A stretch of 22,692 nt of DNA from Chromera velia (lineage: Eukaryota; Sar; Chromeraceae), in NCBI GenBank assembly GCA_018398765.1, contig JAHBMJ010002095.1, positions 1 to 22,692 on the forward strand, read 5' to 3'. Shown piece after piece: positions 2,745 to 21,908 of this stretch; the first letter of the stretch is position 1, and each line of letters begins with the position of its first letter. The translations under genes and the position numbers were made by a program. The notes under the pieces are model-generated. The model saw only the letters and a list, made by a program, of their open reading frames with translations, did no database searches and had not been told where the DNA came from.

Positions 2745-2788
<44 letters not shown>

Positions 2789-2874: not shown

Positions 2875-2943
<69 letters not shown>

Positions 2944-5900
2944 CTCTCTTTCTTTCTTTCTCTCTCTTTCTTTCTTTCTCTCTCTTTCTTTCTTTTTTTC
3001 TGCGCAGACGTCCTTAGTTTTGGTGTCTCGCAGGCGTTTTGCAAGTTCGGTGCTTCTCTGCTTTTCGTTGAACTGTCCTCCTTCACTTCCTCTTCCTCTG
3101 CATGATTCGGATGTGTGCAGAGAGGAGAGCCAAGAGGCAATCGACTCGAAATGGGGTGAAGAATACGTTCATTGACGTCAAGCCGGTCAGCGATGCCCCT
3201 CTGGATGCACCGCTGAGGCGCTGCAGGTCAGCTGATGCGCTTCGTTTGGAGGACCGAGAGGAGGATCTCTCTCTGGAGCCTCTGGTAGAGAGAGACGACG
3301 ACGAGGTCTCGGTGTTCTCTATTGGTGAAGACTCTTTCCTGGCTGGAGATGCGATGGACTCCTTGCTGGCTGGAGATGCAATGGGTTTCGCCCCTGAGTG
3401 GCAATCTCTGGAGGAGGAGGGGGGAGATCAGGAGATGGGGACAGCACGCGACCCCGCACAGGACGTCAGGGGCGTCAGGGGCCAGCAGCAGGACAGCGAG
3501 TCGAACGAAAAGGCAGATGATGGTCTGCCTGCCTGCCTGTCTTGAGTGCTCTAAAAGGTTTCTGTTCAACTCTAGCTTTGCGGTCTCGCAGGCTTTCTGC
3601 GACTTCGTTTCATTTTCTTCGTTGACGGGGTGTTAAGACTTGCCCTTTTATTATCTTCTCTGCCTCTTTTGCCCTCAATCGGACTTAATCCCATTCATCA
3701 TCATCATCATCATCAGTTTCTTCCGTGTTTTACCTCTGTCACTTTTTGGCAAGAAGTCTGCAAGGAGTATCGTGTGAGTGGCTACGTGACCGTCTTCTTT
3801 TCTGCTGTATGACAGGCTTGGCAATTTCGGCTGCCTGGTACTCTTATCATGTAAATCCTCTGACTGCTGTTTCGACATGAAAGCTGGAAAACAATTCTGT
3901 TTCCCCTCTCCCCTCCCCGCATGCATGAGGCAGCTCCTGGGCGTGGGGTACCGCTGGCCGAGAACGACTCGACTGGCGGACCCGCAGCACTCAACCGCGG
4001 CAGCGTTGCCGCTTTGGTCGAAGGCGAGGATGACAGCGAGGGCGGGAGAAGCAACGATGGTCAGCCTCTTTCGGCTGCTTTCAAGGGTCTCTCTCCTTCT
4101 CTCCTCTAGGTCTGCCGTCTCTGACTGAGGCTTTGTGCGGGTTTGTTTCGGTTTGTCGGCATGCAAGAGCAAGAATTGTCTTTTGATTCATTTTGTGCCT
4201 CCCGTGCCCTCAACCTCCCCGTCCCCCGCTTTCAATCTTGTCGGTGCATGGATGGCGGTAGGCTCTGGGCACAGTGATAGTACCGGGAGGGAGAAACAAG
4301 AGGGCACACGTGTATCTTCTTTCCTGTTTTTTCTCTCTGTTGGCTCAGAAGTCGGCATGGAAGGTCTCTCTTGCAGTATTATCATGTAAAGCTTTTCACT
4401 TCAATTTTCAGACACACAAAGGAATGAATATGTTTGGGTTTCCCTCCTTTGATACATGCAGCCCCTGGCAATGTCTCTGTCTCTGTGCTGCCGCCGGCCG
4501 AGAACCACTCGACCGGCGGACCCCCAGCACTGACCCGTACGATGGCAGATCTCCTCAGGTGAGACAACGAATGGAATGGTGTACAGGGAGGGGGGCGGAG
4601 GAGCAACGAGCTTACGCATAGAAGTCTCTCTCTCGTTTGCTTCAATCCTCGTATCACGTGGAGTGTCTTCTATTTTCCTTCTGTCTGTATTCGAGTGCAT
4701 GAGGTACCTATCTTTATCTCTCTGAATTCCTGTTCTTCTGCCCACTCCCGGAATCCTTCTGCATGCATGCAGGTTCTATGCCATTGAGGAGATCACGAAC
4801 ATGCTCTTCGCTTCCCCTTCGGGCACCACTGCCGTCTCGATCCTGCAGGTCGTCAATCGGCTGATGGAGACTGCCTCGGTGCCTGAGATGCTTGCTGAGA
4901 GGCTGATGGGGCATGAGGCTCTCTTCCGCATGATTCGGAACTCCCCGGAATTCTTCGAGGTGAATGAAGAGCTGAGGGCAGTGACGCTCCGAGGGCTCTC
5001 CTTGGCTCCAGAGGGGGGGTCTGGTATTTCCCCTCCGGTGCTCGGACTTGACTTTCAACCTTCAAGTTACCCCCCTCAGGGCACGGTGTCTGCCCTGACG
5101 GGCTCCTTCCTCCAGATCACTTTTGACGCCCGGCCTCTGTCTCTGTGTGTGGTCTCTTTTGAACATCGTGAGGGCCTTGTGGTGGGCACCGTGAGGGAGG
5201 GGGCGCGTGTGACTCTGATGCGCTTCCCTGAGGAGGGCGTGCTGCTGTTGGTAGACGAAGAGGAGGAGGAGGATCACGACGGAGACGGGGATGAGGATGA
5301 GGATGAAGATGAGGAGGGTTGGGAAGATGAAGATGGGTTGGGGGAGGGGGGGGAGTGGGAGTTCCATATGGACGGGTGGGACTCCGATTGGGACTCTGAC
5401 TCAGAAGGGGAAGAGGAGGAGGGGGAGGGAGTGGAACCGGAGGAAGAGCCGGAGCCCCAGCAGGAAGAGGATGGCAGGCAGGAAGGGGGGAGGGGGGGAG
5501 AGCGTCACGAGAGAGGGGGAGAGAGAATCATCACGATCATCAGGGTAAGTCAACAAGTGTACTGACTGTACGGGGGGCGTGTTACTGGGAGTAGGTAGGT
5601 GTGCGTATGGGTGTCGCGCATGTGGCTGCCTGCATACCATACAATCATTGAAAGGGTGGATCCCCAAAGTGGGTGTAGGCACTCACTCATTCCGCCTTTC
5701 CAATTAATGCGCTGACTGGAAGGCTTCCGCCTTCAGCTTTCCTTCCCGTCACCTCCAGGTAGCGCGTCTATCTGATTCTGTCGAATTTCCAGATATGATT
5801 TCTATCACCCTTCTGGGTTTCTGCCTCTCTCTCCTCAACTGATCTGGAGAAGACTTTGAAGCAAGTCTTCTGTCGTTCTCTACCCCCCCTTCATTTCCCA

Positions 5901-6165
5901 CTGACTGTGAATCCTCTATCCTGTCCGCCTTTTGCAGGACCCCCCAAGTGCCCTCTGGCTGGCTGCTGAGGGGGCAGACCTGAACGCTGTGAGAGCTCTG
6001 GTGGCAGGGGGGGCCGGTGTGAACGAGGCAGACGCCTCTGGGGACACGCCGCTGGACATTGCAGAGTACTGGGCCGAAGTCTACTGGAATGACCCTCCCC
6101 GTGCGAGGGTGTACCAGCGCATTGCTACCTTTCTGGAGGAGAATGGGGGCATGAGGGAGGAGTGA
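1291..6165 (+). CDS. Nine-exon gene: ankyrin-repeat protein with acidic domain, function unknown
   Basis: Proposed exons: 1291-1419, 1518-1688, 1860-2003, 2286-2364, 3121-3522, 3934-4059, 4462-4558, 4773-5544, 5938-6165. All introns are GT/AG, all phases agree, and the join is 2148 nt (715 residues plus TGA). The ATG has A at -3. Residues about 29-50, across the exon 1/2 junction, weakly resemble a LisH motif (YL, then GW, then A), unconfirmed. Exons 2-4 are not recognised. Exon 5 encodes a twice-repeated 9-residue unit ending LAGDAM. Exons 6 and 7 are homologous (AEN-x-STGGP-x-AL). Exon 8 encodes a globular part (about 383-543) and then a strongly acidic D/E/G run (about 544-625). Exon 9 (641-715) reads as one to two ankyrin repeats: LAAEGADLNAVRALVAGGAG, then a GDTPLDIA core and a helix ending FLEENGG. 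Ankyrin repeats bind proteins; the partner is unknown. Likely cytosolic or nuclear. Exon edges of 1 and 5 are the least certain. Confidence 0.8.
2127..2154. repeat. (CT)n microsatellite in intron 3
   Basis: About 14 uninterrupted CT dinucleotides inside the intron between exons 3 and 4 of the ankyrin gene, giving the sense strand a long pyrimidine stretch. Confidence 0.9.
2493..3002. repeat. TTTC-type polypyrimidine tract filling intron 4
   Basis: About 510 bp of almost pure C/T on the sense strand, mainly TTTC with TTTTTC, TCTC and TTCG variants and almost no A. It lies wholly inside the intron 2365-3120. Long open frames through it on both strands (F/S/L-rich on plus, K/E/R-rich on minus) are artefacts of the repeat. 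A homopurine-homopyrimidine mirror-like tract of this length could form triplex DNA or R-loops; that is inference. Confidence 0.95.
3010..4560 (+). repeat. Tandem segmental duplication spanning exons 6 and 7 (period about 535-540 bp)
   Basis: Corresponding landmarks recur at a near-constant offset. GGCTTT-x-TGCG occurs at 3591 and 4129, TGCCTC...GCCCTCAA at 3661 and 4196, ATCATGTAAA at 3846 and 4381, and the 41-nt exon core at 3951-3991 and 4491-4531 (37 of 41 identical). A third, more diverged copy of the intron landmark (GTCTCGCAGGC) lies near 3025-3070, so exon 5 may sit in an older copy. The copies have diverged more in introns than in exons. Confidence 0.75.
3330..3383 (+). repeat. Two 27-bp in-frame tandem units in exon 5
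   Basis: Units 3330-3356 and 3357-3383 encode DSFLAGDAM and DSLLAGDAM. The three nucleotide differences preserve the frame, so this is a small in-frame coding duplication. Confidence 0.85.
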
Positions 6166-6960
6166 TCCGTAGTAGCAAGGGGAAGTGGAGCTAGGGCTTC
6201 TCTCTCTGAGACCCAAGAATCGAATTCCCCAAACAATGAACGATGGATGCGGCAGAACAGAGAGAGAATCTTGTGCGCAGATGCAGATGCAGGCATGCAG
6301 GTCGAGACAGAGGGTGCATGGGGGTTGAGAGAAAAGGAAAGAAAGGTGAGGGAGGGAGAGCGGGGGCTGTGGAAAGGTGTAGTCGAGAGACGAAGTTCTC
6401 CTAGAGAATGACGTCTCTCTTCCGCGCGTTTTTCGCATCTGCGCTTTCTCAAATTCCCCGACCTCATCAGCATGCAACGCTTTGGACTTACCCCCTTCAC
6501 TGCCCTCCGATCGACCTGCAGTGTGCTGCGGCCGGGGAGTGGTTGAATGGTTCTTTCTTTGGTATCATCAAGCAAAAGACATGCAGTCGCATCATTAGTC
6601 ACATATAGAAGGATGCAAAGCTGGCAGTGTCGCTGTTTTTTCTTTCGTGTTGGTGTCTACTTGTATGCCTGCCTGGTTGTATGCATTGAATGACCGGCGC
6701 TGTGTCGTTCATTTTTGGGTCGGTGCTTTCTTCGAGGAATGTTCGGTTTGTTCAGCCACGGCTGGGAGGGGTGAATCGATGCCTGACTTCTTCTACAGAA
6801 AGGAAGAGGGAGACGACCGTGTGTCAGCGGCGTGTGACAGCTAGGTTTGGAAAAAGATGGTGTGAAAATCCTGTGGAAAACCCTAGGGAAAACCCGATTT
6901 GCCCTGCATGGGATTTTCGTTCGTTCTAGCGTTCGTTTGACAAAAAAATGTTCAACCACA
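6166..6960. other. 3' flank of the ankyrin gene; no further gene seen
   Basis: Begins right after the TGA at 6163-6165. Short open frames on both strands lack exon-like character. It presumably contains the 3' untranslated region and polyadenylation site, but I cannot place them. Confidence 0.5.
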
Positions 6961-7740
6961 ATTTGTCTCTTTAATTAGTTAAGTAGTTTCTAGTTTAGTT
7001 TAGTTTAGGACTCCCAAAAGCTAGCCAAAAAGAACTAATTAGCTATTGATTGATTGATTGATTGATATGTTCCGCCCTAGGGCCTTCCCGCTATGTCTAT
7101 CTGTCGCATTAAACTAATTAAACTGAGTAAACATATTTGACTAATATTAATTTGCACTGGCACCTCTCCCCCCCTTTTTCTATAAGTAGGTCTAGAGCTA
7201 GCTCCTTGGACTCATCATAATCATCATCATATATGCGCTATCACCATAGGCCTATGCTCTTAAGACTAACTCAGACTAACACAGTATGACTCTAGGTGTC
7301 ACTGTTACTAGGATATGATATGATTTGTCTTTCGGGTGCCTCCCGCGGTCCACTAACCCAGACATAGGCTCACATAGCAGATAATAAATGATCAAACATC
7401 ATCAAACCCTTTTCACTTTAAAATACCCAAGTTGTACTGTACACTGTAACCCAACTAAGCTAAGTATAAATGACTAAAAACTATGGCTCCAGCTAGAACT
7501 GTAGCAGAACTCTAGCCCTAGCCCTAACCGTGACCCTAGCCATGAGTGGTCCATAAGTAGTCCATAGTTCAGTAAGTTGCCAACACTAACTTCAGTTTAT
7601 GCAATCTTAATTTAGTTAAATTAATTTTTAATAGTTAGTTGTAACTAAGTTGTTATACTAGTTATTATAGTTAGTTTAATTAGTTTAAATTATAGTAAAA
7701 TATAAACTAACTAAAAAAGTAAGCCAACTAAAGACCGTAT
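6961..7740. other. AT-rich intergenic block with short degenerate repeats
   Basis: Composition drops sharply to AT-rich. The block holds (TTTAG)-like runs near 6992-7010, an (ATTG)n run at about 7046-7066, TCATCA repeats near 7212-7228 and a short CCCTA-type cluster at 7511-7540. It also has many TTAGTT/AACTAA words (7560-7720). No coding frame of note. Confidence 0.7.
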
Positions 7741-8355
7741 CACCGCGCCTCTGGCAGGAAAGATGACCCATGATAGTACTAGTCTACATATTCTGTCATC
7801 ATTAAAAGGACGAATTAACTTGAAGTTCACACTTATGTTATGTACACACATTGACACGAGTCCAAGTTGACGGATGAGAAACTTTTCAGCATGCCTTTTT
7901 CCGCCCTTTTTTACACGTACTGCCGCATCGAAGTTATGATCGAACTCTCTCTCCGATTCTCTCATGCAACCGTAGAAAGACTAGGCAGAAAGAATGGCAA
8001 AAGAGAAAAAAATTAGGAATATGATGAGTAAGAGATTTTTTTCTTTCGGTCAAAATAGATCTGCTGGTGTGACTCCCCTGATAACCTTCGATCCCCTCTG
8101 TGAAATAAGAGAGGCAAGAATGCATGAAAAGATTTTTTTCGCAAAGAACAACCCTACGACGCATACTGTGCGGTGCTGTGTTTGGAAATTTCTAGTCAAG
8201 ACAAAGGAAAAAGGAAGCCTTGGGGCAGCTGCAATTAGTTGTCAATGAATACTTCCTTTCCTTCTCTGGAGCACAAACTTACTTGTCAACTTGAAAATGA
8301 TAGCGCGATTCCAGTGTGTCCGACGTTCTCCAACGTGCCGCGAATAGACGGGGAC
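7741..8355. other. Stretch without a supportable gene
   Basis: Only short frames in both directions, with no recognisable protein or paired splice sites. Confidence 0.5.
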
Positions 8356-8359
8356 TCCG

Positions 8360-8548
8360 ATGGATTGAAGAAAGGAAGGGAGGAAAGGAGGAGGAGAGGA
8401 ACAGAGAAAGAAAAGAAGAAAAGGAGCCAGAGAGGGAAATAGCGAGGAATACAGGAAAAAAGGGAGTACGAAAGGGAGACAGGAGAAAGAAAAGGGGATG
8501 ACACTATGCAGGAAAGAAAAAAGGGAGAAAGAAGGGGAAGGAAGCAGT
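8360..8548. repeat. Purine-rich (GA/GGAA) tract
   Basis: About 190 bp strongly biased to A and G on the plus strand, with irregular GGAA, GAAA and GGAG words. The overlapping frames (minus-strand F/S/L/P-rich, plus-strand K/E/R-rich) reflect composition, not coding. Confidence 0.75.
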
Positions 8549-10146
8549 GAGACGTGAGGTAAGGATTCAAACACTCTGTTTGTTTCTACTTTTGAAAGAG
8601 ACGTAACTGTCAACGTCCCGCTGTAATCATCAATTCAACGTACACATCTGCATGTGCCCATACATGCATTTGATTTCTGACCCCCCACACTCATATGACA
8701 TCGGGTGAGAGGATCAGCGACGTACTCCCTTGATCGTATTTGGAAATGTACAGCGTGATGGAAATAATTTTGGAGCGATGCAGTCTGTTTTATTGAGGCG
8801 AGTTTTTGATTTTCAAACGAAAATCAAATTGAAGAAGGAACAATACAGAATGATGAGGGGCCGGAAATCAAAGAAGCGAGCATCGTCCGGGAAAAGGCAA
8901 AAAGTGATTTTCCCTCAAATGCCCTGTCTGTTTCTGGCTGATGAAACGCACGAATGCAAGCAAACGATCACGCAGCTGACCTACAAAAGAATCTGTCTGT
9001 TTTTTCTCTCTGCCTCTTTGACTCTTCTCCTCCTTCTCTCGCCGTCTCGATATGCACTTCCTGCTGTCGACTACACTCAATTCACGAGTGATTCGAATCC
9101 AAGACCTCCATTCGACTTTCCCTAAATAGACTGCCAGCCCCCCCAAGGGGTCTCTCCCCTTCTCTTTTGTCTGTCACTTTTCTCTCAGTTCTACCATTTT
9201 TCGCCTGCTGCCCTTCTCTACCCACTCAGTCATATAGCTATCGACACTTTGAGAGATACACGTTCAAAACGACACTGACACACACTCACCACCTTCATTC
9301 TGCCACCTCTTTTCTAAGATTCATACCCACACTCGCTTTTCTCTCATTGACTCTCCTCACTGCTTCCGTCTGTCCCCCTCTCTCGTCCACGTGTCTGCTT
9401 ACTTACTTGAGCACTGAAAAGTTCCTACCCACCCACCCACCCCCCTCACAAAACGGCCGGAATGTGAAACAACAACTGTGCAACAAACTCCGTACAGAGA
9501 GAGAGAATCACGCTCCCCTAGTATCCTGCAGAGACGGCAAACAGAAGAGAGAGAAGAGAAACGAAATCAAAGCCACACAACTCACCATGCACTCACGTAC
9601 GATGCCCGTGCGATAGTGACAAGCCCAGTGACTCAGAAAGAGAACTTTATGGAAATGAACTGAAAGCAAGACAAGGCAAGGGGACCTGTGCTTGCATGCA
9701 TGGATGTTCCCTTTTCGTTTCACATGCACGTAGACACGTCCTTGTCATCTTGAACTGAATAAACCGACGTCTCACTCAGTTTGTCCAGCTTTTCCCGTCG
9801 TGCTGCGAATATGCCAGGACAGAAATGCATGCAAAAAAGCAAAAGACGGAGAGCTAGAAGGAGAGGCGGAACGACCACCAGGGTCCAGGAAGCAGACAAA
9901 ATTGAGGGATCGATGGAACGGAGAAAGAAAATGAGGAGGAGATCTAGTCAGTGAGTGAGCCTGCTTCTGCCTTTCTGATAGTAATGTATTATTCAACGTG
10001 TGCGAACGTATCCATCAATTTCAGTCACGAATTCATCCGACGTGCATTTCCCCAAAGTCTCCAGGCGCATATATGCAGATTTGAAGTTGGGGAGCAGGAT
10101 GCGGACACACTCTTTTTGACCCACCTTTGCCAATGAGAGGATTCGA
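8549..10146. other. Intergenic stretch; no gene I can defend
   Basis: Contains a 131-codon frame (8730-9125, plus) with a basic middle and a hydrophobic segment, and a pyrimidine-rich zone with a 149-codon frame (9167-9616, plus). Neither has homology, repeat structure or splice support that I can see. TGCATGCATG words occur near 9694 and 9826. Confidence 0.45.
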
Positions 10147-10344
10147 TCACAATTGCTGACCACCGTTCACCTTCGAAGTGATGTATGCCTCGACCCCATT
10201 CCTAAATTCAATCGCAGCCTCCAGTGATGGCAGACACTGCTCGATGCCGCTGTTGTATGAATCCCTCAGGCCTTGCTCCAGTTTCTGCCGGACGACCCAC
10301 GGTTGGGAGAGCTTCTCAGAGAACGTTATTTTGTAGATTTTGAG
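10147..10344 (-). CDS. Candidate terminal exon of the minus-strand gene
   Basis: Preceded on the minus strand by an acceptor (GTGCAG, AG at 10346-10345), then 65 codons in phase 0 ending in TGA at 10149-10147. The peptide has a balanced, protein-like composition (ITFSEKLSQPWVVRQKLEQG near its start, EAAIEFRNGVEAYITSKVNG near its end) and is predicted helical. No family recognised. It could be the C-terminus of the gene containing the DH/AT exon upstream (12491-14093) or belong to a separate small gene. Confidence 0.5.
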   Translation of the reverse strand, partial: LKIYKITFSEKLSQPWVVRQKLEQGLRDSYNSGIEQCLPSLEAAIEFRNGVEAYITSKVNGGQQL

Positions 10345-10684
10345 CTGCACGCATTGCCAAGAAAGAGGAAAGGGGAAAGGGAGGGAGACAAAAATCAGAT
10401 TTTTAACGGTATATCACCTTTTATCAGAGACTTAGGGATCAATCATGTATCGAGTGAATAGCGTCGAATTAAATCCGTCCGTCTAGAGTCCGTGACAGAG
10501 AAGCAGAGAAGACAAAGGCTGTGCCAAACTGCTGCTTCGGATTACTTCATCTTTCCGCGGAAGTTTCTCTTGTAGTGTCAGTCACTGCTTTAATGCCTTA
10601 CAAGCCTTACCGTGAGGCGAGCGTGAAAGAGAGGGATCTGGAGCACAATCACGAATGTCATGCGAAAAACAAACAGGAACTGAC

Positions 10685-10746
10685 CAAATCGTCTGCAACC
10701 CTCGTTTTCAACATCTTTCCGCCCAGTGTGGGTTCCTCCACAAGAA
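10685..10746 (-). CDS. Candidate small internal exon
   Basis: Bounded by a good acceptor (TTTGCAG) and donor (GTCAGT) on the minus strand. Read with one carried-over base it encodes 20 residues (LVEEPTLGGKMLKTRVADDL) and exits in phase 0, which matches the exon at 10344-10147. Its entry phase does not match the proposed exon 11967-12070, so an exon is missing or one boundary is wrong. Confidence 0.3.
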
Positions 10747-10774
10747 CTGCAAATACGCAGAGCACAGAAGCATA

Positions 10775-11124
10775 CCCATGCGCACACACATACCCACACG
10801 CACACACATACCCACACGCACACACACGCAAACACACCCACACGCACATACACCCACACGCACACACACCCACACCCACCCACCCACACACACACACAAG
10901 GGACGCACGTGCATGCACACACACGCCCGCAACCATCTACACATTCGCATCACACAAAAAGCCACACCCATACATACACTAATACACATAAATAGCGTAC
11001 GTACGCAGCCATCCAAGCGCAGCTACACACGCATACACATACACACATACACACGCACGCATACCCACACACCCATTNACACACACACACACACACGCAC
11101 ACACACATACACACACACACACAG

Positions 11125-11161
<37 letters not shown>

Positions 11162-11165
11162 CACA
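10775..11165. repeat. CA-rich microsatellite region with one ambiguous base
   Basis: Imperfect CACACG/CCCACA/CATACA repeats, passing into pure (CA)n at about 11120-11159. Position 11078 is N. The histidine/threonine-rich and cysteine/valine-rich frames across it are repeat artefacts. In the minus-strand sense this would be intronic (TG)n. Confidence 0.9.
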
Positions 11166-11361
11166 GTGTCACGCGCACCCACAGAGTGAACTGTTGGAAG
11201 CACGCAAGATTAAGTCGCTCTCAGAGTCCTGACCCTTCAGAATTCGGCGGACCGCCTCCGCTTCCTCTCGGTGTTTCTCCCCCGGTCTCTGCGTCGAGAG
11301 ATTGGACAGGGAGCAAGAAACGCATTGAAGTTTATCTATGTATTGCTTACCAGTTCTGCTT

Positions 11362-11870
11362 GGAGACGAATGAATGAATGATTAAATAAATGAAATATGA
11401 GTGAGTGAGAGAATAAGTGAATAAAGAAATGAGTGAATGAATGGATGAATGAATGAATAAACGAAGGAAGGGAAGAATGAATGAATGAATGAATGAATGA
11501 ATGAATGAATGAATGAGTGAAGGAAGGAAGGAAGGAATGGAAGAAAGAAGGAAGGAAGGGAGGAAGGAAGAAAGGCAGGAAGGAAGGAAGGAAAGAAGGA
11601 AAGCAGGAAGGAAGGGGGGAAGGAAGGAAGAAATAAATGAAGAAAGGAAGGAAGAGAGAAAGAAAGAAAGAAAGAAAGAAAGGAAGGAAGGAAGGAAGGA
11701 AAGAAGGAAGGAAAGAAGGCTAGAAAGAAGGAAGGAAGGAAAGAAGGAATGAATGAATGAATGAATGAAGGAATGAAGGAAGCGGAAGAAGGAAGGAAGG
11801 AAGGTAGGAAGAAAGGGAGGAGAAAAGGGAAGAAAAGGAGAAGAGAGCCAGAAGAAAAGAAAGACCAAAG
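11362..11870. repeat. GAAT/GGAA tetranucleotide purine tract
   Basis: Begins as (GAAT)n with variants (about 11370-11520), then (GGAA)n and (GAAA)n, a short GAAT return near 11745-11770, then purine-rich degenerate sequence. On the minus strand it is pyrimidine-rich and falls between candidate exons of the minus-strand gene, so it is probably intronic there. The S/F/L-rich and K/E/R-rich frames are artefacts. Confidence 0.93.
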
Positions 11871-11966
11871 CAAATCAAAAGAATATGAAAGGCTGAGAAA
11901 GGGGAAAAGCTTTGTCCATATCTTCCAAAATGCACGTCGATTATGGTAATTAATTCCAACACTGAC

Positions 11967-12070
11967 CACAAGTACTGCTGGGTCAACGCCTGCACAGCGA
12001 ACCTCTGCCAGCTCAAATCCTGCTTGGTACCACTTCTTCCTCTCAGCGTGACCGTCAGTTGTCGAGGCCT
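11967..12070 (-). CDS. Candidate exon directly downstream of the DH/AT exon
   Basis: Acceptor TGTGTGCAG (AG at 12072-12071), then a frame that completes the split codon left by the donor at 12490 (phase 1 to phase 1). It reads EASTTDGHAERKKWYQAGFE and continues LAEVRCAGVDPAVLV to a GTCAGT donor at 11966-11965. Phase agreement and composition support it; the exact 3' boundary has alternatives (GTACTT, GTTCGC). No domain recognised. Confidence 0.45.
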
Positions 12071-12490
12071 CTGCACACATACAGATAGGTCGACAGATGG
12101 TACATGCCGTTTTATCGCTGAGTGATGCAGGCCCTTGGGGGAGTTCAGAGCGTCCTCTTACCTGTGATTTTATTTTTGCTTATTCTCAGCTTTCTGAAGG
12201 CAGAAGCAGGATCGACACAGCTGCACATGAGAACCATAGATAAACAAACACACACGCATGCATGCATGCACACAATCTGACAGACGCTCAAACCTATATG
12301 CTGTAATCTGAGGTCTGTTAAGGCCTCTTACACCTGGGCAGACGAGAATAGATCCTAGGAGAGCAGAAAAAAAAGTGAGTGCACACAGAAATTTGTCATT
12401 TTTGTCATTCTTTCAGCGATTCAGACGACAAAGCCTCTGGTGCGGTGACTCTCCATTGGCAAGTGAAAAAGCTTGGCGGAATTTATTCAC

Positions 12491-14093
12491 CTGGCTTCTT
12501 GAAGGCACTTCCGTCAAAAATGTCCACGAGGCTTTTCGTCACCGCACGCGTCTGCATGATGGAGGCGAGGAAAAGCCGACCCCAGTCTGGGGGTGCGACG
12601 AAGACACACACTCCCACCTCAGTCATGCAGACTTCCACCGCCCTCAAAACCTGAACTGGCCGCTCAAGCATCTCTTCCCAATGTGTACGAGCAGTGACTT
12701 CCTCGTGAAGAAGCCCCCCGCTGCTTGTCGACACGAAAAGGATTTCTCCAGATGGAGTGCGAAAATCAGAGGCGAGACCGTCAATCATTGGCGAGAACGT
12801 CCCCCGAGACCCCCTCAAGGGAGCCATCATAGGTGTTTGCAGAGGGTGACTGGCGCACTTGATTCCGAGCCGTCCTTCCTTCTCGAACCAGGAAATGGCT
12901 ATCTCGACACCACTTTTGGGACCCGAGAGGGAAATCAACCGGGGACGGAACACTCCCGAAATTTGCACTCCTGAAAACAGATTCACATCTTCGAGATCTT
13001 TCGTCCCCCTGATTTCCTCGAGACTGTCATTCACCTCAATCTCTGACCACTCCCACAAACACACCGCTGTCTCCTCCCCAAATTTCATCCTTTCCATTGC
13101 TGCCCCCCGTACCTCCACCATGTGTAGGGCATCTTCGAGCGAGAGGGCGTCTAGCGCCACTGCCGCGGAGAATTCACCGACCCCATGGCCCACGATGGCC
13201 GTCAACTCAACCCCCCCCGACTGCCACACAGAGATTAGCCCGCACTCAACCACGAAGCTTCTGACGTGGATCGTCTGCATTGCGATCTCCGTCACATCGT
13301 GCAGCGGGACGCTTCCCCGGAGGAGCCTATCGCATTTGTCCACAGTCTCTTTGAAGATTTCGTTCGAGGCGTACATGACTGGAAGCATCTGCGCATACTC
13401 ATGTGCGGCATCTTCACCCGCGAAGACGATCGCCACAGAAGGGGGCAGAGGGACCAGGTCGAATGAGTACAGCTCCACCAAAAGAGATCCCCTCAAATCG
13501 AACATTCTGATGTCGAAGGACGAGAAATTCTCTGTTGAGCAAAGGAGACGAACATGTGCCCATACCTCCAGGGGAACGCATACGTTTTCCTTCTGCCCCT
13601 CCCGACCCTCTCTCTGAATGGCTGCGTTGACCTCAGCTCCTCGCACTGGCTCCATGCTCGGAGCAAATCTTCCAAAGGAGTTCTTGGAGGATTCAATTTG
13701 GGCCACCAGTACACCCGCAACCTGAAAGGATGCATCGAGAAGCGCAGGATAGACTCTCAGCGACTGAGCGACCCGCTCGTCTTTCAGGGACTCAGGTAAC
13801 TGAAGGTGTACCAGCACCTCCTTCTGTCCAACCCCCCCCTGCCAGACTTCCCTCACTGAAGTCAGTCGAGGGTCGGAGAGGTCGATCTCCACGGTGTCCT
13901 CATTCTTCCTAAACTCTTCCTGAAGCTTCACCAAGGACTGCCCAATCACGACCTTGGGGGGCTCCTTTGCAGAACGACGGGCTGCGGCAGCTTCTTTTCT
14001 GGCTCGAAGACGCGCCGACACTCTCTTCTCAGGGACACTTTCAGAGCCGAAGGCTGGCGGCGCGGTGCACTCCCATTTGTCGAGGAGCGCCTT
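12491..14093 (-). CDS. Large exon: half dehydratase plus degenerate acyltransferase of polyketide-synthase type
   Basis: Bounded on the minus strand by acceptor TTCTTGCAG (AG at 14095-14094) and donor CAG/GTGAAT at 12490; without that splice a TAA follows at 12485-12483. About 534 codons. After a basic, Ala/Arg-rich helix comes the C-terminal hot-dog of a PS-DH domain, with the YPALLDAS motif (Asp codon 13736-13734) and a closing FDLRGSLLVELYSFDLVPL strand. The rest aligns with a malonyl-CoA:ACP-type acyltransferase: FAGED (family FSGQG), IVGHGVGEFSAA (family GHSxGE), VEVRGAAM, SHPLQTPMM (family SHAFHSPLM) and FVAPPDWGRLF near the end. The nucleophile Ser is Gly (13184-13182), the catalytic His is Gln (12839-12837) and the oxyanion Gln is Glu (13415-13413). 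In active enzymes this fold loads malonyl units onto an acyl carrier protein; here it is probably non-catalytic. The N-terminal DH half (HxxxGxxxxP) is absent from this exon, and DH before AT reverses the usual order. Confidence 0.85.
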
Positions 14094-14411
14094 CTGCAAG
14101 AAAAGGTGCATGGGGAAATTGAGAGGCTAGTTGAGAGGCGAGATGCAGCATCCCATTCAAATATCAAACCGTACATGCAATCCGACAGGAATCCAAATCT
14201 GACTTCGTTTACTTTCCGCGAAGCATGCAATGCCATTACTTCCAGAAATAAAAGAACTCAAAGCGGGGTGTATTGCAATGGTCAATGAAGGTCCACGCCA
14301 AAAGCGAAAGTGAATGGAGAAAAACTGCCAAAAAGCGGATCGACTTTCTATCCAAAAGACCCAGAGGGCAAGGCAGCTAGATGGAAAGAGACGTGCATCA
14401 GCGAGTCGGAC

Positions 14412-14480
14412 CTGAACGAGGGAGAGAGCGTTGCGTAAGAACTTCGAAGGCACATCCCTATCCTTCGCACCATTCTTTCT
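14412..14480 (-). CDS. Weak candidate exon before the DH/AT exon
   Basis: A minus-strand frame ending in SKFLRNALSLVQ at a CAG/GTCCGA donor (14411-14410) would join in phase 0 to KALLDKWE of the large exon, forming one continuous amphipathic helix. The 5' edge is unclear: the AG sites available (within about 14480-14440) have poor pyrimidine tracts, so the start given is only an upper limit. Confidence 0.25.
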
Positions 14481-14645
14481 CACGATTCACTTTCTCTCCT
14501 GCAGCTTCTGCCGGCTTTCGATGTCCATGTGTAGTGTACGTGACTGCCATTTCATTCTCTGCAATCCGTTTCTTTTGCAAGCTCTTTTCTCTCCCGCTCG
14601 TGCACACCACCGCATGAGGCCCAAGAAACACCCTTCCAAACTCAC

Positions 14646-14675
14646 CGTCTGATTTTCTGGGCCTGTCATGTCGTC
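14646..14675 (-). CDS. Candidate 30-nt mini-exon
   Basis: Minus strand: acceptor GATGCTTGCAG (AG at 14677-14676), ten codons DDMTGPENQT, donor ACG/GTGAGT (14645-14644). Both splice sites are close to consensus and the length keeps the frame in phase 0. No homology can be read from ten residues. Confidence 0.35.
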
Positions 14676-15071
14676 CTGCAAGCATCCATTAAATCAAAAA
14701 TTTGAAGAATTGGACGGGGGACGAGACGATTGTCGCGTTTTCCTTACTTTGGCGCAAAAGAGAAGAACATGCAGTGCCGATTGTCCACCTCTCACCCTCC
14801 ATCAAGTGTCAATACAAGGGAAAAGAAGAGACAGAAAGAAAGCGTGCAAAAGCAGAAGCTCACAACGACAAAGTAAAAAGACGAAATCCGATCTTTCCAA
14901 ATGAGATCGTGGGTGATCAGCATGCATGCATGCAGGCAGGCAGGAGAAAGAAAGGTCACGTATGCAGTGACTGTCAGGGATGAGTGAAAAGCGACAGCGG
15001 GGAAAGCTCAGCGCAGGTATGTACAAGTGTTGGAGGCGTGCAAAAGAACCGTGAGCGACAAAGCGAATGAC

Positions 15072-15368
15072 CTGTGTCTGCTTGTTCTCTCTGTCCAAAT
15101 CGACCGTCTCCAAAATGGAGCCCACGATGCCTCCAAGTGAGTGCGATGTGAAGCTCTTCCCCACTGGCCTCGCCTTCGCCTCGTTCTTGTTCTTGTGGAT
15201 ATCACAGAGTGATTTTCGAAGGAGGTTTACCCCTGCCATCTGCGATCCTGTGCGGGAAGATGATCCGGACCTGCCGGAGAGGCGAGGCTGAGAAGCTCCC
15301 AGGGAGGCGTCTGCCGCAGAGAGGCCTCCCCGAAAATCCCCTGGCACTGCGTCACCCTCGTGCCGCAT
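15072..15368 (-). CDS. Candidate first coding exon of the minus-strand gene
   Basis: ATG at 15368-15366 with G at -3, 99 codons in one open frame, ending at a CAG/GTCATT donor (15071-15070) in phase 0. This agrees with the following mini-exon and the large DH/AT exon. The first half is low-complexity Ser/Gly/Ala/Arg; the second half is helical (VNLLRKSLCDIHKNKNEA, SFTSHSLGGIVGSILETVDL). If correct, the gene starts here and has no ketosynthase. An overlapping frame (15227 upward) with a strong GGGGTAAAC donor is the competing reading. Confidence 0.35.
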
Positions 15369-15518
15369 TTCGACAAAAATAGAGGAATCTCACGCTGAAA
15401 CAGCCTGAAAGATCCGAAGGAGAGTAATGCAAAGCACGTATAAAGATCAAAGACTTCAAGGTATGCGGACACGACAGATACGTTCGAAGGGCCAGCTTCG
15501 AAGAGAAGTGCTATGGTT

Positions 15519-15655
15519 GATTGCATGAAGCACACTATAATTACATGCATGATATTAATATATTTCCGTCAATATATTGCATGCATAAAAAAATGCATGC
15601 ATGTTCGCGCGCATACGTGCGCGCGCGCCGTACTGCATGTTTAAGTTTTGTGCGG
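15519..15655. repeat. Palindrome and alternating purine-pyrimidine cluster at the satellite border
   Basis: AT-rich ATATTAATATAT and CAATATATTG words lead into TGCATGCAT-A6-ATGCATGCA (9-bp stem) near 15579-15602. A GCGCGCATACGTGCGCGCGC run follows (about 15606-15628), with strict purine-pyrimidine alternation of the kind that favours Z-DNA. No gene. Confidence 0.75.
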
Positions 15656-15670
15656 TCATGTCTGTTTTTC

Positions 15671-17266
15671 TTGAAGGTTGGTGGGAAAAACGGGTTGCAA
15701 ATAACTTTTGAGGTTTAAATCACTTGAAGGTTGGTGGGGAAAACGGGTTGCAAATCAACTTTTAGGATTGAAATCACTTGAAGGTTGGTGGGAAAAACGG
15801 GTTGCAAATGGCTTGTGGGGTTTAAACCACTTAAAGGTTGGTAGGAAAAACGGGTTACAAATGACTTTTGGGGTTTAAATCACTTGAAGGTTGGTGGGAA
15901 AAACGGGTTGCAAATGGCTTGTGGGGTTTAAACCACTTAAAGGTTGGTGGGAAAAACGGGTTGCAAATGACTTTTGGGGGTTGAAATCACTTGAAGGTTG
16001 GTGGGAAAAACGGGTTGCAAATAACTTTTGATAGCTAAAATCACTTGAAGGTTGGTGGGAAAAACGGGTTGCAAACAACTTTTAGGATTGAAATCACTTA
16101 AAGGTTAGTGAGAAAAACGGATTGTAAATGACTTTTTGGGTTGAAATTACTTGAAGGTTAGTGGGAAAAACGGGTTGCAAATGACTTTTAGGGTTTAAAC
16201 CACTTGAAGGTTGGTGGGAAAAACGAGCTACAAATGATTTTTAGGATTAAAATCACTTGAAGGTTGGTGAGAAAAACAGGTTGCAAATAATATTTGGGGT
16301 TTAAACTACTTAAAGGTTGGTGGGAAAAACAGGTTGCAAATGATTTTTGGGGGTTGAAATCACTTGAAGATTGGTGGGAAAAACGGGTTGCAAATAACTA
16401 TTACGATTGAAATTACTTGAAAGTTAGTGGGAAAAACAGATTGCAAATGATTTTTAGGATTGAAATCACTTGAAGGTTGGTGAGAAAACGGGTTGCAAAT
16501 AACATTTGGGGTTTAAACCACTTAAAGGTTAGTGGGAAAAACGGGTTGCAAATGACTTTTGGGGTTTAAATCACTTGAAGGTTGGTGGGAAAAACGGGTT
16601 GCGAATGACTTTTTGGGTTAAAATTACTTGAAGGTTGGTGGGAAAAACGGGTTGGAAATGACTTTTAGGGTTTAAACCACTTAAAGGTTGGTGGGAAAAA
16701 CGGGTTGGAAATGACTTTTGGAGTTTAAATCACTTGAAGGTTGGTGGGAAAAACGGGTTGCAAATGACATTTGGGGTTTAAATCACTTGAAGGTTAGTGG
16801 GAAAAACTGGTTGCAAATGACTTTTGGGGTTCAAACCACTTGAAGGTTGGTGAGAAAAACGGGTTGCAAATGATTTTTGGGGTTTAAACCACTTAAAGGT
16901 TGGTGGGAAAAACGGGTTACAAATAACATTTGGGGTTTTAATCACTTGAAAGTTAGTGGAAAAAACGGGTTGCAAATCAATTTTTGGGGTTTAAACCACT
17001 TAAAGGCTTGTGGTAGCTTATGGGAAAAACGGGTTGCAAATAACATTTGAGGTTGAAATCACTTGAAGGTTAGTGGGAAAAATGGCTTACAAATAACTTT
17101 TTAAGTTAAAATTACTTGAAGGTTGGTGGGAAAAACGGGTTGGAAATGACTTTTGGGGTTTAAACCACTTGAAGGTTGGTGGGAAAAACGGGTTGCAAAT
17201 GACTTTTGGGGGTTGAAATCACTTGAAGGTTGGTGGGAAAAACGGGTTGCAAATAACTTTTACGAT
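15671..17266. repeat. 53-bp satellite array, about 30 copies
   Basis: Direct tandem repeat, core GGGAAAAACGGGTTGCAAAT followed by a variable AAC/GAC-TTTT-GGGGTTTAAA segment and CACTTGAAGGTTGGT. I count about 30 units at near-regular 52-54 bp spacing, with one longer unit near 17008-17030. Since 53 is not a multiple of three, the minus-strand frames with repeated ATRFSHQPSS motifs are by-products. There are no unique spacers, so this is not CRISPR-like. The left edge shares TTTTTCTTGAA with the 243-bp repeat further right. Confidence 0.95.
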
Positions 17267-17268
17267 CG

Positions 17269-18666
17269 CACGGACGTAGGCGGGCGGGACATGAGGGGGA
17301 TCCTAATCAAACCGGACCCCGCGGCCACCCACACTGCACGATTTTGGCCTCATATGGGGAAAGGAGAAGAGAGCCCTGCCTTCCTTTCTTTCCGCTTTTG
17401 AACCTCATCCAACTCACCTAGGAGACGTCAGTTCGCCTCTCTAGACTCTCTCTAGCTGCTTGGTGCAGAAAAAACGACTCCAATACACATAGGGAGTACA
17501 AAGAACGGACGTCTGAGCTCTGACACCTGTAGAGGCCAAAGAGGCCTCCCTGGACTCAGAAGTGAATAAAAGGCTGTGATGCATCAATGATGATAAAATG
17601 TATACCGACACACTCCATCTGGTCCAGGTAACTTAGTTTCAACAGGAGATAACGAATGGTTGGTGCACTGTGGACTTTAAGTGACAAGTCTGCCCAGGAA
17701 CAGAAAGATACACTCCAGGGGGCAGCCTATGTGAAATCGCCGGAAGACCTTTCTCTTTCTTGAGTGCCTCCAACCTGCATCCAGCGCACAGAGGTACTGC
17801 TCTAGAGGGAATGAGCAAGACAGAATGACCTACCCGGGGAAGTGGAAGTCGATCAATGCTCCAGAGACGTCACTTCACCACAACAAAGACACAAAAGAAT
17901 TTCACCTTCCCACAACCAGCAGACACACCAGCAACCCATCCCACTGCCCTGGAAGGATATTAACTGATAAGAGGCACTGGGCAAAATTGTCGAGAATCGA
18001 TTTTGGGCCTCCTGGTGAAAAGAAGGAATGTTGCTCAGGAGGCCAGAAGGGCCAATTCCTGACTGTTCGTACTATGAACTGCCAAACCCATCCAAGCAGA
18101 CCAGCGGTGTAACAAGACTTCACCCTGACACAGACACAAGCTGTCTGGTCTTAAAGGAGGGGAATGGTGCGACTTTTACCACCAATACTGCTCTGGACAA
18201 CAAGAAGGAAAGCAAGGCAAGAGGGAACGAACTTGGCCCTCTGCAGACATCTGTAAGCTTTCTGAGGTTTTTTCAGATATTTTGGTGATTTTGAGGGTGA
18301 CCCCGGAAAGTTGCGGTCAAAATTTTGTCAGATTTGAAATGCCGGGGTCTTGACGATCATTTTGGTCCAAGTTCTACTCTACCGCCGCTTGAGAAATAAG
18401 CCGCAGTAAAAGTGATCAATGAGCAGTGTTCCTAGATTCAGAACAGACGGGACGAACCGGAACCTTTTGACAGACTAGGCTAGACCCGCCCCTCATACAC
18501 GGAGACGCGGCATGCATAACAAAAACCTCAATCAAATTTTGGTAGGTCGCGGGCCTCTGGGGCCACCGGGGCCGCCAGATAAGGCCATACTGCACGTTTT
18601 TGGCTTCGTATGGGTTCCTACCGTTTGATTAAGACCCCCCTCATGTCCCGCCCGCCCACGTCCGTG
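17269..18666. mobile_element. Non-autonomous inverted-repeat DNA element (1398 bp)
   Basis: Ends are 44-bp inverted repeats: 17269-17312 and the reverse complement of 18623-18666 agree at 41 of 44 positions, starting CACGGACGT and ending AATCAAAC. The element interrupts the satellite: GAT occurs at both junctions (17264-17266 and 18668-18670) and may be a 3-bp target duplication, though one or two extra bases at the ends leave the exact boundary open. Inside the inverted repeats lies a 26-bp direct repeat (17333-17358 and 18589-18614, 23 of 26 identical, starting ACTGCACG). No transposase-like frame is visible; the longest is about 95 codons. Family not assigned: the CAC terminus and possible 3-bp duplication only loosely recall CACTA elements. 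Confidence 0.8.
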
Positions 18667-18701
18667 TGATTGAAATCACTTAAAGGTTGGTGGGAAAAAC
18701 G
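18667..18701. repeat. Satellite remnant between the two elements
   Basis: Thirty-five bases of satellite unit (GATTGAAATCACTTAAAGG then GTTGGTGGGAAAAACG). They complete the half unit left of the first element and continue into the half unit right of the second. Confidence 0.85.
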
Positions 18702-19859
18702 CATGTTGTCTAAACCTTCAGAATGACTGCCTGCGCTGCCTTCAGGGTCTTATGTATGACCTTCCCCAGGCGGTCCGTAAGGACCGCCTGCGGCACCCCA
18801 GGCAGTCAGGGGGTCTTTTTGCATTCTCTTTATAGTATGAAAAACGTTGAAAAAAGTTTAAAAATGCCTTTATTCTGGGATTTAGTATCTGAACGCAACT
18901 TTAAAGATTCATTTACAATGCTTCAAATTGAATCAATAAATCAAAATTTTTATATAATTCTAGATATTATTTTATAGAAAAGAATTAAATCAAATTTTCT
19001 GAATAATTTTCCACTCTGCGATAAGTTTATAAACAATGCAAAGTTGCATGTGTCACTTTTTGTTTACTTGGATTGGCACCTCCCAGACAAGCTTCCCAGA
19101 CAAGCTTGAAATCTTCTACCTTATCATGGTGGTGAGGGACATAGGCATCGATTGCCTGTCTGAATGTTCTGCGGCGGTTCTCTTCAGCTACGACCTGTTC
19201 TTCTGTTATGTCCTCTATGTGAAACACCTCTCTCTCTTCCTCTACCTCTTCCCTCTCAAATTCTTCTTCTGCCTCACCCCCCTCCATTTTTTATCTCTTT
19301 GCGGGAGGCTTGCCTGTAAATCCGAAGGCTTACAACCTACTCTGCTGCATTGCAGTTAGCTAGGCAGGCAGCAAACGGGAAGGCCAAGTGTGGAATTATC
19401 AATCAGTGCAGTCAGTAAGCGGGAAGGCTAAGTGCAGAATCAATCAGTGAGTCAATCAATGGATGTATAATGATGTGCAATGATGTGCATCTCCAGTAAT
19501 AAGAGTGAAAAGAGACGAAAGTTGAAAGCAACCGTCAACTTAATATGTATCCACTGGTATCTATCGCTAATCACGACCGCCAAACAAAAAGTTGCTGCCG
19601 GTCTGCATGACCCGGTCGGACCTTTGATGCATGGTATGCATGTATAGATTGCGAGGTCGTGTCGGCGCATCCCTCACGCAAACCTGGTCAGGCATGTGCA
19701 CCGTGGTTCGTGACGACAAGGTCGGTGCCGAAGGTACCGACCTTCACCCCAGACAACTCTCAACAACTGCCTGGGGCTTTGCCCCAGGCAGCTCTATATA
19801 AACTTAGGCAAAACCACCTGGGGTCACCCCAGGCGCCCCAGGCAGGTTTAGACAGCATG
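18702..19859. mobile_element. Inverted-repeat DNA element with 8-bp target duplication and terminal hairpins (1158 bp)
   Basis: Terminal inverted repeat CATGYTGTCTAAACCT (16 bp, one mismatch) at 18702-18717 and 19844-19859. Both flanks carry the perfect 8-bp direct repeat GAAAAACG (18694-18701 and 19860-19867), which is part of the satellite unit, so it is a target duplication. An 8-bp duplication is typical of hAT and also P superfamily elements; the CATG terminus is closer to P than to the usual hAT CAG. Next to both ends lie stable hairpins: 18767-18790 (10-bp stem, GTAA loop) within an outer 10-bp pairing 18724-18733/18799-18808; 19718-19744 (12-bp stem, GAA loop); 19767-19791 (11-bp stem, TTT loop); and 19817-19833. 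No transposase recognised, so it is probably non-autonomous. Confidence 0.85.
19027..19287 (-). CDS. Hypothetical acidic protein inside the second mobile element
   Basis: 86 codons from ATG (19287-19285). The first 40 residues are very rich in Glu (EEEFEREEVEEEREVFHIED), then a mixed segment with TFRQAIDAYVPHHHDKVEDF and KLVWEACLGGANPSKQK. Composition is more protein-like than the opposite strand's Phe/Leu-rich frame. No transposase motif or known domain. It could be an eroded internal fragment of a parent element's gene, or chance. Confidence 0.3.
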   Translation of the reverse strand: MEGGEAEEEFEREEVEEEREVFHIEDITEEQVVAEENRRRTFRQAIDAYVPHHHDKVEDFKLVWEACLGGANPSKQKVTHATLHCL

Positions 19860-20017
19860 GAAAAACGGGTTGCAAATCACTTTTGAAGGCTGAAATCACT
19901 TAAAGGTTGGTGGGAAAAACGGGTTGCAAATGACTTTTGGGGTTTTAATCACTTGAAGGTTAGTGGGAAAAACGGGTTGCAAATGATTTTTAGGACTGAA
20001 ATCATTTGAAAGTTGGT
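19860..20017. repeat. Satellite array, continuation right of the second element
   Basis: About three more 53-bp units in the same orientation and register as the first block, starting with the right copy of the 8-bp target duplication. Confidence 0.9.
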
Positions 20018-20550
20018 GGGAAAAACGGGTTGCAAATAACTTTTGGGGGTTGAAATCAGTCTAAATCACTTAATGGAAGGTTGATGGGAAAAATTGGTTG
20101 TAAATGACTTTCCGGGCTGAAATTAAACTGAAATTGCCGCTGAATCACTCTTATTGCATTTTTGAAAGTTGAAAGCAAGTAAATAAATATAAACAAACTT
20201 TTTTTAAAAAATTGTATATACGAACACGTTCATCTGGGTCCGTTTTTCTTGAAACTTAGTGGGAAAAACGGGTTGCAAATAACTTTTGGGGGTTGAAATC
20301 AGTTTAAATCACTTAATGGAAGGTTGATGGGAAAAATGGGTTGTAAATGACTTTCCGGGCTGAAATTAAACTGAAATTGCCGCTGAATCACTCTTATTGC
20401 ATTTTTGAAAGTTGAAAGCAAGTAAATAAATATAAACAAACTTTTTTTAAAAAATTGTATATACGAACACGTTCATCTGGGTCCGTTTTTCTTGAAACTT
20501 GGTGGGAAAACCGGGTTGCAAATGGCTTTTAGGGCTGAAATCACTATTAG
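20018..20550. repeat. 243-bp higher-order repeat containing a satellite unit
   Basis: Copies 20018-20260 and 20261-20503 are in exact 243-bp register, with only a few substitutions and no visible indel. A third copy starts at 20504 and breaks off after about 45 bp. Each copy has a satellite-like unit, a second diverged unit (GGAAGGTTGATGGGAAAAA), and about 130 bp of unrelated AT-rich sequence with a T7A6 run and GTATATACGAACACGTTCAT. Confidence 0.92.
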
Positions 20551-20595
20551 TCTAGCTTAGTCTAGCTATTGGTACTAATTAAGTACATTAAATCA

Positions 20596-20619
20596 GTATA
20601 TTTTTTTAAAAAAATATAC
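20596..20619. repeat. Perfect 24-bp AT palindrome
   Basis: GTATA-T7-A7-TATAC, perfectly self-complementary. Related T7A6 runs occur at about 20193-20206, 20437-20450 and 20646-20660 in the same repeat region. Confidence 0.9.
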
Positions 20620-20654
20620 ATGCTAACATGTGCGTATATGTGTTTGTTTTTTTA

Positions 20655-20710
20655 AAAAATTGGTAGGGCCGGGGAAACCGGGTTGGAAATGACCTTTACG
20701 ACTCACATCA
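20655..20710. repeat. Diverged last satellite unit
   Basis: GGTAGGGCCGGGGAAACC followed by GGGTTGGAAATGACCTTTACGA is a decayed 53-bp unit and marks the right edge of the satellite domain. Confidence 0.65.
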
Positions 20711-21400
20711 CTACATTGAAGAAATGCACTGCAACAGTGTTCCAACATGCACTTTTGATTATAATTGCAATACTGTACAATATATATGCATAACAAAAAC
20801 TGATGATAGAAGGTTTTATCATGCATGTTGCGTCCCTACTAGTATATATATGGGGAACAGATATAGCTTAGTTTGTCAGAAGGTTCCCCTTTTTTCTGTT
20901 AGTCTCGTCTGTCTCGATTCTAGGAGCAAACTTATCGATCCCTTTCAATGCGCAGCTTATCACTCACCACTTTGTACAACATTGTTGCATGAAGCACGTC
21001 TGCGTTTGGAGAATTAAAAAGAAATGCCACCTACAAAAAAATGTACGGAGCAGAAGAAGAACCGAATGAGAGAAATAAAATCAACATCGGACTGTATCCA
21101 CAACCGATCGATGCGGGCAGGAATAAACAAAGACACAACGTTCATGCATGCACGCGAGAGGCCGGGAAAGTTTTCGACCTACTGTCGCATGAATTTATAA
21201 TTATCAATTTCTCAACTCTGCAGGGCGCCCTCCCTCTCCGTCTCCCCGTTTCCTTTCAAGCGCATCGATCTCAGCAGTCAGGTGGATCGACAGACCCTAC
21301 CTCAACGAAAGAAAGAAAAAGGAAAAAAGGAACTAAAACAAACGATGCAACGCCCATGCATCCACCGATCGACCGATCGATCGATGTATCCATCCACATT
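20711..21400. other. Stretch without a supportable gene
   Basis: Short plus-strand frames (97 codons at 20724, 134 codons at 21041) show no domain or repeat-free conservation that I recognise. Includes GATCGATCGATCGAT-type words near 21366-21386. Confidence 0.45.
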
Positions 21401-21402
21401 CC

Positions 21403-21500
21403 CAGACAGACAGACAGGCAGGCAGGCAGGCAGCCAACGAGCTAGACAAGCAGCTAGGCAAACAGGCGTAGAGGTCAGCAGACAGACAGACAGGGAAAAT
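21403..21500. repeat. CAGA/CAGG tetranucleotide repeats
   Basis: (CAGA)n passing into (CAGG)n at about 21403-21433, then GCTAGACAAGCAGCTAGGC-type degenerate repeats and a second CAGA run near 21478-21494. The D/R/Q-rich frames across it are repeat artefacts. Confidence 0.85.
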
Positions 21501-21574
21501 TGCATGAAGCAGAAAGGAGACGCATGGGTGTTTGACGAAAAGACCGGCAGTGCAGGACGTTCGAATCGGTTCGT

Positions 21575-21618
21575 GAATGCATGCGTGCGTGCGTCAGTCA
21601 GTCAGTCAGTCAGTCAGG
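21575..21618. repeat. GCGT then GTCA tetranucleotide repeats
   Basis: ATGCATGCGTGCGTGCG followed directly by about six GTCA units (21593-21617). Confidence 0.9.
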
Positions 21619-21797
21619 CTCGTTACTCACCTTCCTTTCTGTCTTTTGTTTGCATGCATACACGCTCGATCGATCGAAGGATCGTTCAACCAATCGACGT
21701 CCAGGACCAACTCGGTCTCTTTCTTTCTCACACCTTCCCCCCTCTCTGTCACTCAGTCCTCCCGTCCCCGCATTCCTCCCCGTGCATCTAGGTCTCC

Positions 21798-21908
21798 AGC
21801 TGCTACAGATAGAGTCAAGCTGAAGCTGAACGGCAAGCAATGCCCTTGACGCACACAGCTTCTACACATAGAGTAAGTCAACCTGAACGGCAAGCCATGG
21901 CATTGCCC
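21798..21908. repeat. Imperfect tandem duplication (about 59-bp offset)
   Basis: CAGCTGCTACAGATAGAGT to GAACGGCAAGCAATGCCC (21798-21845) recurs as CAGCTTCTACACATAGAGT to GAACGGCAAGCCATGGCATTGCCC (21857-21908), with small indels. Confidence 0.75.

Follow-up and report, generated by a model that had tools for sequence, protein, structure and literature searches.

The window analysed here is one whole contig (C2087) of the Chromera velia genome, 22,692 bases long; the genome searched comprises 177.8 Mb in 4040 contigs, and names such as C608, C3391, C409 and C781 denote contigs of this same genome. An open reading frame scan of the window revealed a minus-strand open frame of 547 codons (14126-12483), within which lies an exon encoding half of a polyketide synthase (PKS) dehydratase (DH) and an acyltransferase (AT) domain with a replaced active site. 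About 8.6 kb of contig lie upstream of the exon and 12.5 kb downstream.

14646..14675, minus strand: candidate first coding exon, assigned by eye (ATG at 14669-14667, MTGPENQT)
5' side of exon 14093..12491, minus strand: splice acceptor CTTTTCTTGCAG, pyrimidine-rich and ending in CAG, assigned by eye
12491..14093, minus strand: exon with half DH and dead AT, 1603 nt, 534.3 codons, phase 0 to 1
3' side of the exon, at 12491, minus strand: splice donor CAG/GTGAAT, assigned by eye

The candidate first exon ends in phase 0 before GTGAGT, and its phase fits the main exon. The initial annotation had placed an AT domain at 12491-13450 within a frame intact over about 530 codons. The frame is indeed stop-free across 534 codons, and the span covers the AT part, but the exon runs to about 14093 and the half DH upstream had been missed. 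The GC content at third codon positions is 0.633 (0.589-0.647 in six PKS exons of the genome), that at second positions is 0.427, below the same six exons (0.473-0.492), and the codon-usage score gives the true frame a modest edge (0.065 versus -0.036 to 0.038 in the five other frames). Bacterial contamination was rejected, as the closest relatives are found in the same genome (up to 36% identity, versus 22-30% for bacterial ATs); it is also countered by the PKS-exon-like base composition, the satellites on the contig and the splice-like sites.

Elsewhere on the contig, a 53-bp tandem satellite occupies 15670-17261 and 19859-20543, upstream of the gene; the eight genome matches listed for it, in a search that scored three candidates and skips common words, all lie on the window contig. 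Simple repeats (TCTT, CA and GAAG/GAATGAAT) at 2493-3001, 10783-11159 and 11368-11859 produce long spurious open frames. On the plus strand, a 279-codon open frame with an acidic tail (4726-5565) looks like another gene, and just after it lies a weak ankyrin-like match (5938-6061, plus strand, E 0.01, under the cut-off).

The AT domain was delimited using Pfam, blastp and tblastn, AlphaFold2 (AF2) and Foldseek. Window residues 250-509 match Acyl_transf_1 (PF00698) at E 1.8e-15, scoring 57.7 bits (cut-off 32.7), and residues 220/230 to 510/521 align with the ATs of C608 (33% identity) and C3391 (31%). The AF2 model of the AT part (pLDDT 81.3, pTM 0.83) has an AT fold, with the ketosynthase (KS)-AT of CurL as its best Foldseek match (E 4.1e-16, TM 0.73), although its alignment consisted of intact relatives (50 of 80 bacterial ATs), and such alignments pull AF2 towards the known fold. 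Two of the checks that had been proposed with the initial annotation, a Pfam alignment and a structure prediction, both returned an acyltransferase, the second with this qualification. A joint AT and DH alignment for one full-length model was dropped because the DH rows landed on the AT part, and the halves were modelled separately.

Active-site columns were compared with 93 reference ATs, comprising 79 bacterial ones (of 80 loci) and 14 from this genome; the counts leave out C1139 and the split-piece ATs of C612, C3834b, C1305, C3434 and C675. The GQG and HAFH columns are biased, because the bacterial references were fetched by patterns holding these motifs, while none of the fetching patterns touched the columns of Ser, Asn, Arg and His/Gln (485).

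12561..13436, minus strand: acyltransferase domain
13413..13415, minus strand: Gln of GQG replaced by Glu (GAA), the next Gly being Asp; references Gln in 93/93 (biased column)
13182..13190, minus strand: GHG, nucleophile Ser of GHSxGE replaced by Gly314 (GGG, 13182-13184); references Ser in 93/93
13107..13109, minus strand: Arg339, kept; references Arg in 93/93
12948..12950, minus strand: Asn of AAxNGP replaced by Phe392; references Asn in 93/93
12837..12839, minus strand: catalytic His of xAFH replaced by Gln429 (CAA); references His in 92/93 (biased column)
12669..12671, minus strand: His/Gln of WxxH/Q replaced by Met485; references His/Gln in 92/93

The replacement of all three key positions, claimed at the outset, was borne out: the Gly (13184-13182), Gln (12839-12837) and Glu (13415-13413) codons are all in frame, and two more pocket positions, Phe392 and Met485, are changed as well. 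Met485 replaces the hydrogen-bond partner of the catalytic His, and the conserved Arg339, which is kept, is the substrate-carboxylate Arg. Neither the Ser nucleophile nor the catalytic His of an active acyltransferase is present (Gly314 and Gln429). The GHGVGE motif holds no Ser or Cys, and in residues 306-330 the nearest Ser is Ser 319, five residues on. With the nucleophile, the base and the oxyanion-side residues lost, the domain should, by established AT chemistry, be unable to perform Ser-ester acyl transfer. In PfaB, exchange of Ser for Ala was reported to abolish transfer in vitro (PMC12895367). The window AT keeps 38 of the 75 columns in which 85% or more of the references agree, versus 62 to 74 in the motif-intact ATs of the genome; the distant AT of C1139, whose motifs are intact, also keeps only 38.

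Upstream of the AT, the exon encodes the following part of a dehydratase.

13446..13871, minus strand: second half of the double hot-dog of a PKS dehydratase (PS-DH), reaching the C-terminal edge of the DH
13734..13736, minus strand: Asp of the DH motif YPALLDASFQ, kept; invariant in 23/23 aligned rows

PKS dehydratases are double hot-dog enzymes, with the catalytic His in the first half and the Asp in the second. Window residues 98-143 match PS-DH (PF14765) at E 4.5e-5 and 23.5 bits, the curated Pfam cut-off being 23.7, and the half is absent among the matches listed by a genome-wide PS-DH search at E 0.001. Both blastp and tblastn tie it to the PKSs of C3391 and C608; by blastp, residues 85-226 correspond to the second DH half at residues 1965-2102 of C3391 (32%) and 2056-2196 of C608 (29%). 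The AF2 model (pLDDT 79.8, pTM 0.77), built on aligned intact relatives (22 of the 26 bacterial loci in which a DH was matched), retrieves PKS dehydratases in Foldseek, with CurK at TM 0.62. Only this second half was matched, so the double hot-dog is incomplete, and tblastn with six PKS exon proteins revealed no His-bearing first half on the contig.

The two matches abut in the exon with no gap, as judged by blastp against PKS exons of the same genome, and their order is DH and then AT, whereas in the paralogues AT precedes DH. When the AT and DH matches of the genome search were paired by eye, 18 ATs were followed on their own strand by a DH no more than about 3 kb away, and the window reverses the order of all 18. 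Where a DH does lie upstream of an AT elsewhere, a KS match stands between them (e.g. in C133, with DH at 955-1446 and AT from 6249); among the AT, DH and KS matches of the search, the window is the sole case of DH followed by AT without an intervening KS. The 53 KS matches listed for the genome all lie on other contigs, and tblastn together with Pfam found no KS, ketoreductase (KR), acyl carrier protein (ACP) or first DH half on its 22.7 kb. Beyond the exon, tblastn of six PKS exon proteins against the whole window gave nothing at E < 0.001, and the Pfam scan of the minus-strand stretches 2800-12600 and 14200-22692 gave no other domain with E up to 1, positions 1-2799 being covered by tblastn. 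The window thus does not contain the KS, AT and ACP in one chain that make up a type I PKS or fatty acid synthase (FAS) module. The best other tblastn match, of C608 residues 1781-1843 to 4969-4778 (E 0.053), is antisense to a longer plus-strand open frame and was taken as chance.

Both the DH half and the AT are nearest to the PKSs of C608 and C3391, at 29-36% identity. A first AT tree (C675 left out) placed the window near C608, in a five-row group with support of 84/96; in a second tree (C675, C1139, C1305 and C3434 left out) the pair of window and C608 had 41/21 and a six-row group 92/93, and none of the supports near the window AT is starred. Among 23 readable ATs, a count that leaves out the AT of C3973, three carry Gly as nucleophile, namely the window AT and those at C409:118k (GHGVGE, 118016-118879) and C781:24k (GRGVGE, 24108-24968). 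The latter two are a duplicate pair, each lying on one long exon with a KS (DTACSS motif) on one side and a DH on the other, and they keep 53 and 52 of the 75 conserved columns versus 38 in the window AT. The trees favour the window AT as kin of C608, but a single clade with this pair is not rejected (p-AU 0.40), and the window AT may share one Ser-to-Gly event with the pair.

For the duplicate pair, Nei-Gojobori (NG86) dN/dS is 0.049 over the dead AT (dS 1.44), 0.040 over the KS and 0.063 over 1269 codons, values that are rough because dS beyond 1 approaches saturation. Pairs of live ATs, taken as controls, gave 0.064 and 0.034 at similar dS and 0.278 in a very recent pair (dS 0.056); NG86 and maximum likelihood values were obtained in all seven dN/dS comparisons. 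The low dN/dS points to strong purifying selection on the duplicate pair, so that in this genome selection does maintain an AT with Gly for Ser. The matches on C781 follow each other as KS-AT(dead)-DH, KS-AT(live)-DH and KS-DH without a detected AT. A further stretch, at C24:113471-113566, encodes 32 residues that are 63% identical to window residues 355-386 (window 12966-13061; genome-wide E 7e-5); its DNA match scores 50 versus a maximum of 45 in 50 shuffles, and it lies inside a 202-codon open frame in which no other PKS similarity was found. It is possibly a remnant of a closer relative of the window gene, or possibly chance.

The open frame of the window exon was compared with random sequences and with simulated neutral drift. 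In 2000 Markov sequences of the exon's composition the mean number of stops was 15.8 and the minimum five, versus none in the exon. Simulated neutral drift, with substitutions only and starting from one paralogue (C608), gave a mean of 12.6 stops at 34% identity, with at least two in each of 300 runs, and a mean of 7.9 stops at an equal loss of conserved AT columns, with none of 1000 runs stop-free. Identity to C608 is retained at 37 of 66 columns that are at least 85% conserved versus 36 of 145 under 60% (Fisher p 1.9e-5), a test that excludes the middle class (20/58) and conserved columns where C608 itself departs. Within the conserved class, retention was lowest in the most conserved columns (22/44 at 95% or more, versus 15/22 at 85-95%). 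The open frame, the composition and the preferential keeping of family-conserved residues together argue against neutral decay, and from this one sequence we infer that the window copy is maintained. The window AT sits on a very long branch (3.1 and 3.5 changes per column in the two trees), which, together with the 38 of 75 conserved columns, also fits weakening constraint.

The exon could also be read as a recent pseudogene or gene fragment, that is, a duplicated PKS piece that was long constrained, has lately become functionless and has yet to accumulate stops. We consider this unlikely though worth serious attention: the KS, KR and ACP are missing from the contig, only half a DH is left, the branch is long, about half of the conserved columns have changed, and the C24 stretch suggests that scattered remnants of window relatives may exist. 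Set against these points are the failure of every one of the 1000 neutral runs to reach the same loss of conserved columns without a stop, the acceptor and donor, which are well formed by eye, and the conserved positions that are still preferentially kept. It is more doubtful that the exon is one part of a bigger split gene, the remaining domains of which are missing or unrecognisable on the contig, the dead AT sitting idle in a multi-domain synthase as in C409 and C781. Dead ATs between KS and DH do occur in the genome, the ATs of C3434, C1305 and C612 are in several pieces, one PKS begins at a contig edge (C1549:14), and the exon itself starts at an acceptor-like site and ends in the donor-like CAG/GTGAAT; the contig, however, is complete, the minus-strand stretches scanned hold no Pfam domain at E up to 1, and the DH-AT order is unlike a standard module.

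Two further explanations carry little weight with us. A pocket re-tooled for other chemistry, or for binding of coenzyme A (CoA) esters without turnover, would account for the substrate Arg being kept while most catalytic positions changed, but it is very improbable given a nucleophile motif without Ser or Cys, a nearest Ser at 319, and conserved columns now occupied by Glu, Asp, Phe, Gln and Met. That the assembly has fused two unrelated PKS pieces, as the unusual domain order and the 4040 contigs of the genome might suggest, we find hardly credible: the open frame runs across the DH/AT junction, and with identities of only about 35% to the nearest relatives found in the genome, neither the DH half nor the AT copies a known locus.

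We therefore favour, with a probability of roughly 60%, the reading that the exon belongs to a maintained gene for a non-catalytic AT-like protein that descends from a type I FAS/PKS of this genome. The pseudo-enzyme as opposed to decayed pseudogene that the initial annotation had proposed is thus the best-supported reading, its frame and conserved sites being unlike simulated neutral decay; the half DH, the inverted order and the Ser-to-Gly change in other ATs of the genome had escaped it. The exon would be part of a divergent nuclear gene, in whose origin a recombination or deletion between module copies of a type I FAS/PKS of this genome may have joined the second DH half directly to an AT, yielding a product without KS, KR and ACP. 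The AT would then have lost its nucleophile, base and oxyanion-side residues while the fold and the reading frame were kept, as the frame, the conserved sites and the models suggest. Its folded surface might bind a synthase partner (an ACP, a KS-AT linker or another AT), or alternatively a CoA substrate could be bound through the kept Arg, so that the protein might serve as a docking, scaffold or sensing part.

A broader proposal, which we consider speculative and rather improbable, is that the free half-DH/dead-AT protein acts in trans by docking to or gatekeeping synthase modules, and that the dead ATs of C409 and C781 are a kept intermediate towards AT loss in algal FAS/PKS; the idea of an intermediate comes from C781, where dead-AT, live-AT and AT-less stretches occur in succession. 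The loss of built-in ATs, with carriers loaded in trans instead, has been proposed for algal synthases (PMC4661987). An AT that is dead yet conserved would stand midway between one that works and one that is gone, and would mean that its scaffold does something besides catalysis. With the C409/C781 pair this idea can already be put to the test; a free half-DH/dead-AT protein would be an uncommon product of the same loss of ATs.

Within the genome, the PKSs of C608 and C3391 are the best matches to both the DH half and the AT of the window, but they have live GQG, GHSLGE and SHAFH motifs, a KS and the order KS-AT-DH, while the window has no live motif, no KS that we could find, and the DH first. 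The ATs at C409:118k and C781:24k share with the window FAG at motif I and the Gly nucleophile, but they keep GQG, the catalytic-His position and the Asn and are sited between KS and DH. Starter unit (SAT) domains belong to the AT superfamily. In the GXGXG SAT domains described for atrochrysone carboxylic acid synthases the nucleophile, a Cys, is likewise now Gly, but these are fungal and stand in the order SAT-KS-AT-PT-ACP (PMC11149221). The AT of irumamycin PKS module 12 shows the same change of GHS to GHG with poor similarity to all AT motifs and is regarded as inactive by its authors; unlike the window it is bacterial and lies in the last module of an assembly line (PMC11672594). PfaB of bacterial polyunsaturated fatty acid (PUFA) synthases also joins a dead domain to an AT, but there the AT is active and the dead partner is a pseudo-KS (PMC12895367).

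In the algal PKSs of PMC4661987, whose AT domains are displaced in trans, built-in AT function has also been lost, but the built-in ATs are absent, and the main text of that source contains neither 'inactive' nor 'Chromera'. For a chromerid, 29 AT-domain genes have been given (the species is ambiguous in the source), and C. velia is described as having two FAS-I-like genes with a fused AcrB-like or sterol-sensing part (PMC7464705). In our own searches a weak sterol-sensing match (E 3.2e-4) that contains a stop precedes the PKS of C3434 by about 4 kb; it is one of 20 in the genome, and none among the matches listed lies on C1305, the sister of C3434. A literature search on dead ATs and Chromera PKS found no report of the half-DH/dead-AT order; 'inactive acyltransferase domain' combined with 'polyketide synthase' had no match, whereas 'inactive AT domain' did. 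The dead AT itself is of a known kind, since both a Ser-to-Gly AT and a Cys-to-Gly SAT are already in print.
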